The position numbers and the translations under genes are program-made. A stretch of 64,000 nucleotides of DNA, from NCBI RefSeq assembly GCF_003864335.1, contig NZ_BEXA01000002.1, positions 62,001 through 126,000 on the forward strand, written 5' to 3'. The DNA comes from Lentilactobacillus kosonis. GTDB taxonomy: Bacteria > Bacillota > Bacilli > Lactobacillales > Lactobacillaceae. Below are positions 9,951 to 54,835 of this stretch, piece after piece (within the stretch, counting starts at the first letter, position 1; each line of letters opens with the position of its first letter). The notes under the pieces are model-generated. The model ran no database searches, was not told the origin of the DNA, and was given only the letters and a program-made list of their open reading frames with translations.

Positions 9951-9998
9951 AATAAATTCGCTCCATTTTTACGTACTTAATCATTGAGGTGATTATCT

Positions 9999-11321
9999 AT
10001 TATTCATAGTATATCAGAACTATTTGGTCGCCAAATAAATACGCGGTGTATATCGCCGGAAATTCTTAAATCCGCATTGATAATTTTTCGCAAATCAATA
10101 ATTCGCGAACGTCGGCGAATAGTATGCAATCGTTGTGGATCAACTTTGCGCTGCCCGTTAGCAAGCTTACCTAATGACCACCTTTATTGTTATTGTTGTA
10201 TACAACTTGGTAGATTAGATACATTATCAAAACTCGCAACTGTACGAGAGCCAAATCAATTTAAAATAATTGACTGTCCCTTAGCATGGTCGGGGAAATT
10301 AACTGCTGATCAACAAAGTTGCTCTGACAAGATTACATATGTAATCAACAACAACACTACTCATTTGTTGTGGGCGGTTACTGGAGCCGGCAAAACGGAA
10401 ATGCTATTTGAAGGCATTGCTCAAGCGCTTGTGTCTGGAAAAAGGATTGCGATTGCATCACCTAGAATTGATGTAATTAATGAATTATTTCCAAGACTCC
10501 AAGCGGCGTTTCCTAAGATTGATATTTGTTTACTTCATGGACAAATCAAATCTGGTTATCGGTACTGCCAATTAACTATTTGCACTACCCACCAGTTAAT
10601 GAAATTTTATCAGGCATTTGATGTCTTAATCATCGATGAGGTGGATGTTTTTCCATATGCTGGAAATATGATGCTTCACTATGCAGCCAGTAAAGCAGTT
10701 AAAAGTACTGCCAGTCAGCTCTACTTAACTGCTACGCCAGATGACTTTTTAATAAAACAGATAAAATCTAATAAAATTAGTGTCAGTTATCTGCCGAGAA
10801 GATATCATGGATTTCCATTGCCGGAAATCACTAATGTAAAGATTAGAAGCTTAAGAAACAAGATTGAAAGTGGTAAATTTCCTAAATCAATTCTTGAAAA
10901 GATTGCTAACATAATTTCTCATCAATCATTATTAGTTTTTGTGCCTCAGATTGCTGATCTAGCAAAAATTGCTCAAGTTATAAATGCGTCTAAACGAGGC
11001 TGGCAATTCACAACTGTCTTTTCTGCTGATCCTGAAAGAATTGAAAAGGTGCAATTAATGCGGGATGGCAAGCTTGATTTCTTGATTACCACAACGATTT
11101 TAGAGCGCGGAGTTACTTTCAAAAATCTAAGTGTCATGGTACTAAGTGCCGACAATGATATCTTTAGTACTGCTTCATTAGTCCAAATTGCTGGAAGAGT
11201 TGGTAGAAACGCCAATTTTCCGACAGGTGAAGTGCTATTCTATATTGAAAATATAACACCTAAAATTAGGGCTGCTCATAATCAAATTAAGAAGATGAAC
11301 GTGATGTCAAATGAGAATTAA
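9999..11321 (+). CDS. comFA: Competence DNA-translocation ATPase ComFA
   Basis: Helicase-like ATPase that pulls single-stranded DNA into the cytoplasm during natural transformation. An N-terminal four-cysteine zinc site (CNRCG and CYCC) is followed by Walker A GAGKTE, Walker B IIDEVDVFPY, motif III LTATPDD and motif VI QIAGRVGR. The first conventional start is TTG at 10077, but that would remove an in-frame upstream stretch containing ISELFGRQ, which resembles the conserved ComFA N-terminus. No ATG, GTG or TTG exists in that stretch. ATT at 9999 lies 7 bases after GAGGTG, so either a rare AUU start is used or one more indel hides the true start. Overlaps comFC by 11 bases. Confidence 0.88.
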   Translation: MIHSISELFGRQINTRCISPEILKSALIIFRKSIIRERRRIVCNRCGSTLRCPLASLPNDHLYCYCCIQLGRLDTLSKLATVREPNQFKIIDCPLAWSGKLTADQQSCSDKITYVINNNTTHLLWAVTGAGKTEMLFEGIAQALVSGKRIAIASPRIDVINELFPRLQAAFPKIDICLLHGQIKSGYRYCQLTICTTHQLMKFYQAFDVLIIDEVDVFPYAGNMMLHYAASKAVKSTASQLYLTATPDDFLIKQIKSNKISVSYLPRRYHGFPLPEITNVKIRSLRNKIESGKFPKSILEKIANIISHQSLLVFVPQIADLAKIAQVINASKRGWQFTTVFSADPERIEKVQLMRDGKLDFLITTTILERGVTFKNLSVMVLSADNDIFSTASLVQIAGRVGRNANFPTGEVLFYIENITPKIRAAHNQIKKMNVMSNEN

Positions 11322-46563: not shown

Positions 46564-47965
<1,402 letters not shown>

Positions 47966-47970
47966 TAATA

Positions 47971-48000
47971 AAAAAAGTCGTCTTATGACGGCTTTTTTTA
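47971..48000 (+). terminator. Terminator after eno
   Basis: AAGTCGTC pairs with GACGGCTT (one G-U), followed by T7. Confidence 0.85.
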
Positions 48001-48015
48001 TTTAAAAAATAAATC

Positions 48016-48063
48016 ACCTCCATTTGCGTATTTAACAATTGAATACACAAATGGAGGTTTTTT
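48016..48063 (+). promoter_or_regulatory. Terminator-like hairpin sequestering the ribosome site of the surface protein gene
   Basis: ACCTCCATTTG (48016-48026) pairs with CAAATGGAGGT (48048-48058), and after a C-A mismatch GTATT pairs with AATAC, around a 9-base loop. T6 follows (48058-48063), then ATG at 48065. The only Shine-Dalgarno, GGAGG (48053-48057), lies inside the 3' arm, so the folded RNA would both stop transcription and hide the ribosome site. Confidence 0.75.
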
Positions 48064-48064
48064 A

Positions 48065-49700
48065 ATGAAAAAATTTGCAATAATGTCAGTTGGAATTATG
48101 TCGATGTCGCTGGTCATGTCAAATGTCCAACCAATTTTGGCTGATACGAATTACTCTGAGTCACAAGCTAATAACGAATCTAACTTGCAAGTTAGGTGGG
48201 ATAGTCGTTACTTTGTTGTTAATACAGACGGAACGCAGGAACTTGTTAAGCAAGTACTAAACGACAGTTCGATTAAAACTCGCCTTGGTGGGATGGTCAT
48301 CCCGACTTCAGAAAATTCCGGTGGTTGGATTTTACTTAATGATGATCCAATCAAGGCAACTAAAAAGGATGGTCAATTTGTAATTGTTCCCCGTAATCTA
48401 ACGCAGCCCAAGGCTAGCGTTACCCTTAAATTGGTTGATGATTCAGGAAATGAAATTGCAAAACCAATTGTGCTAACTAAGGCATCTGTAAAGGGAAAAT
48501 TAATTTTACCTCCTGAAACACAAATCGATGGGTATGCGTTAACTAATCGAGAAAAATTACCGACTAACGTTGATGAAGATAAGATTGAACTAACGTTAGT
48601 TTATAAAAACATCAAAGACGATCATGATGTGACTGACAAAGATGAGTCTGATGATATTAAACCGGAAAATCCGGATCGTGATTCTTCAGTAGTTGAAAAT
48701 GATGATTACCAATCAGCTAAGGATAAGGACGAAGAAACCCAAACGAATATTTCGAACGAAACAAAGAGTGAAGAGGTTCAAGTTGATGCAGGTAAATCTG
48801 GAGAATCGACTACTACGCAAACTGATGAATCAGAGCTAAAAGATGTAGACACCCAAGCTGATACCACCATTGAAACTACTATTGAGGGTACACAAATCAA
48901 CGACGTTAACCTTGGCGATGCCGTGACGCAAACGGATTTAATTAATTCCAAGGATGAATCCAATCAAGCAGAAATCACCAAAAATTCAGTTGATGGATCA
49001 AATCAAACTGATGATTGGACAACTCAAAATCGAGGAACGCAAACTAACAGTAATGTAGATAGCAATGTATCCGTTGATCCCGTTTCAAGCAAAGATGTTA
49101 TTAATAATAAGGTTCCAGTTGGTCAAGCAAACGTTAAGAATGCCGAGTATCAAGTAACCGGTAAGACCGTTCAAGGAAAAATTCTGTTTAGTCGGGTGAT
49201 TAATTCCACTAGTCAAGGTAATCACTTAGAATTTAATGTACCAGGATATGTAATTTTAAGTAGCGAGTTTAAAAACAATGAATTAACACTAAATTACGTA
49301 CCAAAACCAATTAATATTTTAGTAACAGCTTTAGATGAGCAAGGTAAGTCCTTATATCAATCGAGATTTACTTCAGTGTTTGGAAGTAAATTTAAATATA
49401 CTCCAGTTCAAATTTCTGGATACAAATCGCTTGATTCAACGATTGATAAATTTTTGTCAGCTGATGATTTAGTTGAATATCAAGTTCATTATCAAAAATT
49501 ACAAAAGTTAAATACCAAAAAAACAGCAAAGGAGAAAAAGACAAAAGTCAGTTAAACGGACCACAAAAAGGGCTAAAAAGAACACAGAGAGGGTTAAGAA
49601 ATCACCTAAGAAGAAAAAGGCGAAATTATCCAAGACTACAAAAAAACGAGTAACTGCAAAAAGAGTTAATAGTAAAGTCGTACGACATGCAATTCATTAG
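48065..49700 (+). CDS. Secreted MucBP-like surface protein with basic C-terminal tail (frameshifted)
   Basis: Exported protein with a signal peptide (MKKFAIMSVGIMSMSLVM, cleavage likely after ILA near residue 27). A MucBP-like module spans about residues 115-190 (LKLVDDSGNEIAKPI, DGYALTNREKLPTNV). Residues about 190-345 are acidic, rich in Asp, Glu, Asn, Thr and Gln with recurring TQT/TQTD. A second beta-rich, MucBP-like region follows (about 355-480). An extra A in the A5 run at 49535-49539 stops the frame at 49555; removing it extends the protein to 544 residues with about 28 Lys/Arg in the last 61. There is no LPXTG motif or membrane anchor, so attachment through charge to the anionic wall is plausible. 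Follows eno. Confidence 0.75.
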
Positions 49701-52466: not shown

Positions 52467-54835
52467 TTGCAAGATAATGAATTAAAAAATGAAATTGCTA
52501 ACGTTCTTGTCGGTCATCCTGACAAGTCGTTTTCTGTAGAAGAAGTTGCTGATGTTTTGAAGTACCATGGTTCAGCAGCATTTAAATTGATTGTTCAAGA
52601 ATTGGCTGTATTGGAAAGAGAAAAGGTTGCTTCGGTTACTCTAGACGGCAAGTTCCAACTTAATCCTGAAAAGCGTAAACTAACAGGGATTTTCCATGCT
52701 AATGATAAGGGATTTGGTTTTGTCGCATATGATGAAGTTGAACCTGACGCTTACATTGCCCCGGACAATACTATGTTGGCACTTAATGGAGACACAGTTG
52801 AAATCGAAATTGTCCGACCAGGTTCTGCCGATCAATCTAAAGGACCTGAGGGTAAGGTTACTGCAATTGTTGATCATAAGTACAAGTCTGTAGTTGGCGG
52901 ATTTTCTAAGCCTGATGATGACCGTGGGTATTATGGTGAAGTAAAATTAACTGATAAGAAAATTGCTAAGTATAAATTTTATATCAATGATGTCGGAATT
53001 AAGCCCACACCTGGTGAAGTGGTCACGGCTCAAATCGTTGAATATCCTAATGCTAGTCATCCAGACTACATGGTGGGAATTGCAGAAAAGGTAATTGGCT
53101 CAGTTGACGACCCAGGAATTGATATTTTGCAAGTGGTATATGCTCATGATATCCCAGCAGAATTCCCTGAAGAAGTTACTGAAGCCGCTAATGCAATTCC
53201 AGATCATGTTACTGAAGAAGAAAAAATCGGTCGCGAAGACATTACTGATCAAACGTTAGTAACAATTGATGGTGAATCTTCAAAGGATTTAGATGATGCC
53301 GTAACTGTTTGGCAACTACCAAATGGTAATTATCATTTAGGAGTTCACATTGCTGATGTTAGTCATTACGTTACACCAGGTAGTCCATTAGACAAAGAGG
53401 CATTTAGACGTGGTACTTCCGTATATTTAACTGACCGAGTAATTCCAATGCTTCCTAGAAGATTATCTAACGGAATTTGTTCACTTAACGAGGGTGAGTT
53501 AAGACTTTGTATGAGTTGTGAGATGGAAATTGATCAATTTGGAAATGTTATTAAGCATCGAATTCATCCGAGCTTGATGAGATCTAAAGCTAGAATGACA
53601 TACACTGCAGTTAATCAAATCTTAGAAGCTCATGACGAAAAGACAATGGATCAATATAAAGAATTGGTACCAATGTTTGAACAGATGGGTGATTTACATC
53701 GAATTTTAGCTAAGAACCGAAAAATCATGGTGCCATTGATTTGACGATCATGAAGCAGAAATTATTGTTGATGAAAAAGGTCATCCAATTGACATTAAGG
53801 TTAGAGTGCGTGGATTAGCGGAAAGAATGATTGAATCATTTATGTTAGCTGCTAATGAAACGGTTGCTCAACATTATTTTGAACAACATGTGCCATTCCT
53901 ATACCGGGTCCATGAAACGCCTGATGCTGATCGAATTAAGACCTTCTTTGAAACGTTGACTGCTTTTGGAATCAACGTTAAGGGTGATCCCGAACATATT
54001 CAACCTAAGACTCTTCAAAATGTGCTTAAGCAAGTGGCTGGTAAGCCTGAGGAAACCATGGTTTCAGTTATGTTACTTAGAAGTTTGAAACAAGCTAAGT
54101 ATTCAGACCAATCTCTTGGTCACTTTGGTCTTGCTGCGCCTTACTATACTCACTTCACGTCACCAATCAGACGTTATCCTGATACGATGGTTCACAGAAT
54201 GATTCATTACTACGATGAAAATGGGATTAACGAAGAAACTAAAAAGAAAATTTGCTAACGTGCTTGATGAGGTCGCCGTAACCACGTCAGAATATGAACG
54301 CCGAGCTATCGATGCTGAACGAGACACCGATGCTATGAAGAAGGCTGAGTACATGAACGACCACGTGGGTGAAGAATTTGACGCCGTTATTAGTTCAGTA
54401 CTTAAGTTTGGAATGTTTATTGAATTACCTAATACTGTTGAAGGATTAGTTCATATTAGTCGAATGGATGATGACTATTATGAATATGTTGAACAATTTA
54501 TGGCTCTTGTTGGTAGAAATACTCGTAGAACATATAAAATGGGTCAGCCAATTCGAGTGAAGGTTATCAATGTTGATGTTGAACAAAGTGCTGTTGATTT
54601 TGACATTGTTGATCCACAAAATACACCGACAAGTGATATTTTGCCTAAGCGTCGACATAATGATAATTATCGCGGTGGTAATCGTCAAAACAGTAATAGT
54701 AACAATCGGAACGGTAATCGAAATAATAGTAATAATCGAAATGGTCGAAATAATAACCGAAATAGCAATAGTAATAACAGCAATCATAGCTCAGGTAATC
54801 GATCACGCAACAATAGCAACAGTCGCAAGCACTAA
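52467..54835 (+). CDS. rnr: Ribonuclease R (three frameshifts) with Asn-rich tail
   Basis: 3'-5' exoribonuclease that degrades structured RNA and works with SmpB-tmRNA. N-terminal winged helix, cold-shock domains (KLTGIFHANDKGFGFV), RNB catalytic domain with DITDQTLVTIDGESSKDLDDA and HYVTPGSPLDKEAFRRG, and an S1 domain (FDAVISSVLKFGMFIEL). Two missing bases near 53721-53725 and 53731-53733 and one extra A near 54249-54252 break it; repair gives 789 residues. The last about 55 residues are almost only Asn, Arg, Ser and Gly in place of the usual Lys-rich tail. TTG start at 52467 after GAGGAA. Confidence 0.93.

Follow-up and report, generated by a model that had tools for sequence, protein, structure and literature searches.

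A competence-type promoter box nested within a Shine-Dalgarno-hiding hairpin downstream of eno in Lentilactobacillus: a candidate two-way gate for a surface protein gene

At pyrC of E. coli and Salmonella, the position at which the transcript starts decides whether a hairpin forms over the Shine-Dalgarno (SD) sequence, the switch there lying in start sites a few bases apart at a single promoter and not in a choice between two sources of transcription; IS10 is, besides IS200, another insertion sequence guarded against read-through. In phage T4, the late genes I-TevI, I-TevII, I-TevIII and segB have a late promoter that lies within, or next to, a hairpin hiding the SD, and the ribosome-binding site (RBS) is hidden also in soc and e (PMC2988022); the nested-promoter mechanism as such is already known from this phage. 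In IS200, one stem-loop stops impinging transcripts and another occludes the RBS (PMC3196728). A different line of work concerns the competence genes. In L. sakei, SigH drives the com genes, and its overexpression raised comFA, comEA, comGC, comC and dprA 261- to 2163-fold as measured by qPCR, the SigH table there containing no surface protein (PMC3364868). The pneumococcal ComX motif reads TTTTTNHNNNYTHTTMCGAATADWNWRRD-[start] (PMC6560143), and Listeria SigH promoters have a -35 of the AAAGGATTT type (PMC4754846). Our searches of the open-access literature yielded no report of a nested-promoter SD hairpin in lactobacilli or as a competence gate.

We analysed a 64,000-nt stretch of the Lentilactobacillus kosonis genome (hereafter, the window), in which eno (enolase; 46649-47965, + strand, from the ORF list) closes a gap-pgk-tpi-eno glycolytic run and is followed on the same strand by a gene for a secreted or surface protein (48065-49555; ORF list and full-length relatives in genomes G023 and G002). 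Any RNA that reads through into the surface gene comes from eno. Minimum free energy (MFE) folding placed eno's own terminator-like hairpin and T-tail at 47967-48002, where the original prediction had also recognised a terminator, and revealed a second hairpin at the junction. The latter comprises 19 pairs, 11 of them between the 5′ arm ACCTCCATTTG (48016-48026, supported by folds and arm swapping) and the 3′ arm CAAATGGAGGT (48048-48058) and eight in the apical stem (48028-48035 with 48039-48046), with a single C·A mismatch (C48027/A48047) and a CAA loop (48036-48038); the one mismatch had been described correctly, the earlier count of 16 pairs had not. Its MFE is -25.3 kcal/mol, whereas shuffled sequences averaged -5.2, and none of 200 shuffles equalled it. 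The SD sequence GGAGG (48053-48057) lies entirely within the 3′ arm and is buried in the computed fold of the long transcript, as had been proposed. It is followed by six T residues (48058-48063), the first of them paired, and then by one A, not two bases, before the ATG at 48065. A stable stem with an immediate U-run is the form of an intrinsic terminator, and the terminator shape originally noted is borne out by the computed energy and the T-run, termination itself being predicted. We write "terminator-like" because the term describes fold and T-run, a consensus terminator scan having listed neither the eno hairpin nor the junction hairpin. Searching Rfam gave 37 sub-threshold matches to E 5 and none above the gathering score, and hence no known cis-regulator or thermometer family. 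A repeat or mobile element was considered and rejected, the hairpin being unique in its own genome apart from its own complement, and an exact-pattern scan of the genome contigs gave no match.

A sigma-70 scan of the + strand of the junction returned no match, in agreement with the original prediction that no good promoter precedes the ATG, as far as the housekeeping type is concerned; the earlier reader had seen a real and unusual structure but missed a competence-type promoter box within it. This box, TTTGCGTATTTAA (48023-48035, core C at 48027), is composed of a T-rich stretch and CGTAnnTA and spans the 5′ arm and the apex of the hairpin. With a matrix built from 62 com promoters of other genomes, it ranked second (15.9 bits) among 127,962 window positions, after the box of comFA (18.2 bits; 9968-9980, + strand), a second regulon member for comparison; the training sites were required to contain CGTA, and the rank is only as independent as that permits. 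The 62 sites were drawn from 70 com promoters at hand, from which we deliberately excluded the three of the window's own genome and dropped five without a recognised box and SD (comGA of G021 and G001; comFA of G018, G019 and G021). The pattern TTTNCGTANNTAA alone was weakly enriched (48 matches vs. 36 for the reversed pattern in three close genomes), and a looser box-plus-SD pattern gave 104 matches vs. 36 reversed in 24 genomes; hence, many single box matches are due to chance.

The box resembles late-competence promoters in having a T-rich stretch and a CG-containing core just before the start, as well as in the shared gene set comGA, comEA, comFA, dprA, coiA and cinA (PMC6560143, PMC3364868), and is nearer to the pneumococcal ComX motif (PMC6560143) than to Listeria SigH promoters (PMC4754846). 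It differs from them in its core (CGTAnnTA vs. CGAATA; PMC6560143), in its placement within an SD-hiding hairpin and in its target, a surface protein. When the pneumococcal spacing is carried over (core C + 13 nt), the predicted start falls at about 48040 (48038-48042), the position that the original prediction had named as incompatible with its read-through reading. Since the 5′ arm lies upstream of or within the box, the regulated start implied by the position of the box should yield RNA without this arm, whichever exact base is used, which makes the earlier suggestion that a promoter inside the stem would give a leader unable to fold the reading we now favour. The surface gene thus shares a box of the late-com type, with a distance from core C to SD of 26 nt as opposed to 14-19 nt at the com genes, so that its leader is longer.

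In the window's own genome, comEA, comGA and comFA are each immediately preceded by the same box. Across the genus, comGA and comFA are each present in 23 of 24 genomes and comEA in all 24, and most of these copies have a CGTA-type box before the SD; the distance of 14-19 nt was found at 21 comGA, 20 comFA and 24 comEA promoters in which both box and SD were recognised. Among 20 of the places matched by the looser pattern, boxes lead cinA, coiA, comC and dprA in some genomes, and others precede unrelated genes or no gene. A CCTCC before many comFA boxes was examined as a possible anti-SD and rejected; it is better read as the SD of a divergent upstream gene (as seen in G023), and comFA is therefore not counted as gated. 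Several side observations were made at these promoters. The comFA gene of the window has ATT (9999-10001) where most relatives have ATG, as do the copies in two close genomes (L112 in G023, L131 in G002), which is perhaps a rare AUU start codon. At cinA (L386, L402) and comEA (e.g., L310-L313), the T-rich part of the box seems to be supplied by the T-run of the upstream gene's terminator. A competence-type box with an SD precedes an SbcD-like phosphoesterase gene (named by eye) in G004 (L396) and G013 (L404), and a short uncharacterised ORF of the window's genome (L143, G000:C8:42391) also has such a box ahead of it.

As to the factor involved, the window's genome carries a SigH-like gene between an NYN-domain gene and rpmG-secE-nusG (gene names by eye), whose matches to the NCBIfam models of SigH fall short of the curated cut-offs; a candidate sigma factor of this kind is present. 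A second small sigma-like gene (L178, G000:C1:140287-140481; 181 aa, with an HTH end) could encode another competence-type factor, and either of the two may read the box.

The arrangement is conserved throughout the genus. Enolases are 92-100% identical in all 24 Lentilactobacillus genomes, and in 23 of them eno is followed by the hairpin with its box and with GGAGG in the 3′ arm; the best eno matches in a named collection (L. parakefiri, L. hilgardii, L. kisonensis and L. rapi) have the same junction. In the remaining genome (G008), the eno contig stops after the eno terminator and the hairpin opens another contig (by eye), and we excluded it from all statistics because its contig is broken at the element. 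In the 23 genomes the N-terminus of the downstream product looks, by eye, like that of a secreted protein, the start codon being ATG, GTG or TTG. The box reads CGTA in 22 of the 23 and CGGA in G021, and its distance to the anti-SD is nearly fixed at 9-13 nt. When the 15 nt holding the 5′ arm were shuffled, at most one of 200 shuffles folded as well in 18 of 23 genomes, the others being G013 (48/200), G005 (19/200), G020 (7/200), G015 (5/200) and G006 (3/200). Beyond the genus, 26 of 80 named loci were read by eye. Secundilactobacillus malefermentans has a box-bearing hairpin, and no further terminator is evident after its eno; in S. silagei and S. yichangensis the box is accompanied by weaker-looking arms. 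A similar gene in Levilactobacillus cerevisiae lacks an intact box, and the remaining genera among these loci showed no box within 1.2 kb after eno.

The two arms coevolve, in keeping with the compensatory changes that had been foreseen. In 22 genomes (the elements of G017 and G003 are identical across the region analysed and enter the alignment, pair test and arm swapping as one), the hairpins formed by own 5′ and 3′ halves averaged -19.8 kcal/mol vs. -14.4 for swapped halves, and none of 20,000 permutations was as good. Pair counts on MAFFT columns were dropped since the arms were out of register; in the test used instead, anchors were fixed solely on the CCTCC-like motif and GGAGG, and four neighbouring columns were scored. 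The expectation was 67.4 paired cells out of 88, and 77 were observed, a figure reached by 0 of 2000 permutations, with A-U, G-U, G-C and U-A pairs in column 1 (p 0.002), a p of 0.024 in column 2, and no significance in columns 3 (0.18) and 4 (1.0); all these permutation figures are guides and not probabilities, the genomes being related and thus non-independent. Loss of the left arm with retention of GGAGG, which would have spoken against the original prediction, was seen in none of the 24 genomes, and three of the 22 tested (G006, G012 and G013), all with weak hairpins, showed little or no own-arm advantage. A further statistic, the pairing of the SD with the upstream arm, carried little information, since shuffled arms also pair (medians of 0.63 for shuffled and 1.00 for observed arms; 0.66 at comGA, 0.86 at comFA and 0.02 at comEA); it was discarded in favour of fold energy and arm swapping. 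By energy, the surface gene stands apart (median -19.4 kcal/mol, compared with -5.5 at comGA, -4.5 at comFA and -7.2 at comEA); the strong hairpin goes with the surface gene and not with the box.

The two transcripts differ accordingly in their computed folds. Over 23 genomes, the median chance that the SD is unpaired was 0.0005 in read-through RNA vs. 0.56 in RNA beginning 11 nt after the box C. In the short RNA of the window it was 0.21, i.e., the SD is mostly paired in the computed ensemble, owing to a weak pairing with the coding start (about -6 vs. -25 kcal/mol); in G001 it was 0.08, and in G006 and G012 it hardly changed from long to short RNA (0.32 to 0.36 and 0.22 to 0.30, respectively).

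The hairpin, the box within it, the boxes at com genes, the conservation, the coevolving arms and the sigH-like gene can all be read from the DNA, and we consider them best explained, with a probability of roughly two in three, by a two-way gate, in which the hairpin silences read-through from eno and the nested competence promoter makes a translatable RNA of the surface gene. One segment of some 50 bp would make up the gate. A polymerase coming from the glycolytic genes would transcribe all of it; the 19-pair hairpin would fold and ought to terminate the RNA immediately ahead of the ATG, and the SD would be buried in any RNA that extends further, so that translation in the cell would be silenced as well. 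For polymerase carrying a competence sigma factor of the SigH/ComX type, the 5′ arm and apex would instead be a promoter; we infer that SigH reads it and that RNA starts in the loop at about 48040, without the 5′ arm, with a much freer SD, and is translated. The surface protein would then be absent in ordinary growth, active as the neighbouring gene is, and would be produced alongside the DNA-uptake genes, its gene being expressed only when competence is switched on.

Other explanations were weighed against this one. The competence promoter may be real and the hairpin only a (second) terminator of eno, the hidden SD being a by-product of position. The T-run would fit, with 5 to 7 T within the 8 nt after GGAGG in 23 of 23 genomes, as would the four genomes (G009, G018, G019 and G021) in which our script found no comparable hairpin with T-run before the element. 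However, a separate eno hairpin with T-run (at least -4.2 kcal/mol) is retained in the other 19 of 23, the tract after GGAGG is interrupted in G011 (TTCCT), G016 (AATTTT) and G020 (GCTTT) with the SD still in the stem, and a box with a buried SD occurs also at dprA, comC and other genes that are not behind eno; we therefore hold this explanation to be unlikely, while granting it some weight. That the whole is an ordinary tandem eno terminator and the likeness of the box accidental agrees with the terminator shape and with the fact that the box core also arises by chance, but accords poorly with the second rank in the window and with a CGTA kept in 22 of 23 elements at a near-fixed distance from the anti-SD, and appears very improbable.

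The original prediction preferred a gene without a local promoter, whose protein is made only on glycolytic read-through once heat, a small RNA or a protein opens the hairpin. The buried SD and the empty sigma-70 scan of the junction suit such a scheme; the competence-type box inside the hairpin, at matrix rank 2, does not, and a fold of -25.3 kcal/mol is so stable that it would make a poor thermometer, with no Rfam family above the gathering score. We regard it as very improbable. Alternatively, the palindrome could be a DNA operator, with a protein binding the dyad over the promoter and the RNA fold being secondary. The apical part is indeed near-palindromic over the box, and a DNA palindrome would give coevolving arms equally well; yet outside the box and SD the sequence varies widely while complementarity is kept, the G-U pairs that G002, G020 and G023 have in the first column tested fit RNA better than a protein site, and a strong dyad is missing at comGA, comFA and comEA, which leaves an operator highly doubtful.

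The arrangement behind the proposed gate is not confined to eno. A search of 397 Lactobacillaceae genomes for an anti-SD, a CGTAnnTAA box and an SD gave 25 matches in 21 genomes and none for the reversed pattern: ten at the eno junction, four at dprA, one at comC, two at a glucosaminidase-LysM gene, seven (in four genomes, two overlapping) at genes of the PD-(D/E)XK nuclease family and one, in another genus, at a surface-like gene that is not next to eno. One copy each of the dprA, comC, glucosaminidase-LysM and PD-(D/E)XK kinds was checked with Pfam. In G345, G293, G355 and G017 (the last from the looser pattern), a co-directional rnhB-like gene ends 9-35 nt before the box of the gated dprA, whereas the nearest such ORF in G391 ends 267 nt away; dprA of G004 and G005 has the box with a weak fold. 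At the gated comC (G010) and surface-like gene (G365), the upstream neighbours are divergent, so that read-through offers no obvious reason there. The gated design recurs without being universal, and transcription running in from a neighbour does not account for every case. The PD-(D/E)XK genes, from another genus (L175, L154, L157 and L155 in G143, G188, G091 and G166, respectively), have the box inside an SD-hiding hairpin, as if they were induced with DNA uptake. In a separate family-wide 23-mer search, of whose matches 20 places were read, most of the weak matches look like chance AT-rich ones. The 23-mer matches near contig ends were rejected, as they proved by eye to be a spacer between tRNA genes; a two-tRNA spacer (L073-L079; G013, G022, G008, G010, G018, G019 and G004) contains TATGTATTT(G/A)ACAATTGAATACACAA-like DNA, similar in sequence to the hairpin apex, a resemblance perhaps due to chance.

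As for the surface protein itself, 16 of 23 copies end in an LPxTG-type anchor as read by eye, those of G002, G021 and G023 have a lysine/arginine-rich tail, and the frames of G000, G005, G014 and G020 are apparently broken before the end. A MucBP domain was present in two of four relatives scanned; none was found in the window's copy, whose frame seems broken near the 3′ end, a lysine-rich stretch continuing in another frame. Besides the surface gene with its end at 49555, other frames of this genome look broken too: rnr (52467-54835) is split over three ORFs, and comGA (L137/L259) and comEA (L142/L329) carry stops. With an assembly completeness of 83%, these may be sequencing errors rather than decay. 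Our guess is that, during competence, the surface protein helps to handle DNA or the wall.

Compared with the known systems, the T4 genes resemble the proposed gate in that a long upstream RNA folds and hides the RBS and the RNA of a later promoter is too short to do so, but they are phage genes with phage late promoters (PMC2988022), while the Lentilactobacillus element lies on a bacterial chromosome and has a competence-type box, a terminator-like tail and genus-wide conservation. IS200, like the proposed gate, shields a gene from its neighbours' transcription by termination and RBS occlusion, yet uses two separate structures where the eno junction has one, and is a mobile element and not a fixed chromosomal gene; the passage describing it notes no nested alternative-sigma promoter (PMC3196728).

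Taken together, the matches lead us to lean, if only slightly, towards the view that Lactobacillaceae repeatedly build gated competence genes, in which a promoter of the SigH type sits inside a hairpin that hides the SD and often looks like a terminator, such that leakage transcription would yield no protein. Such a gate would serve the genus-wide eno-linked surface protein, which would be produced together with the DNA-uptake machinery, as well as dprA where it follows an rnhB-like gene, the glucosaminidase-LysM gene and PD-(D/E)XK genes. An odd, seemingly self-blocked gene thereby turns into a testable rule, in which one stretch of DNA silences one transcript and launches another, and the anti-SD, CGTAnnTAA box and SD provide a signature that can be searched for. 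To our knowledge, the conditions for natural transformation in food lactobacilli are poorly known, and a reporter placed behind such a gate could give a low-background read-out of competence. If the two-way gate is true, a surface protein would join the competence programme of food lactobacilli.
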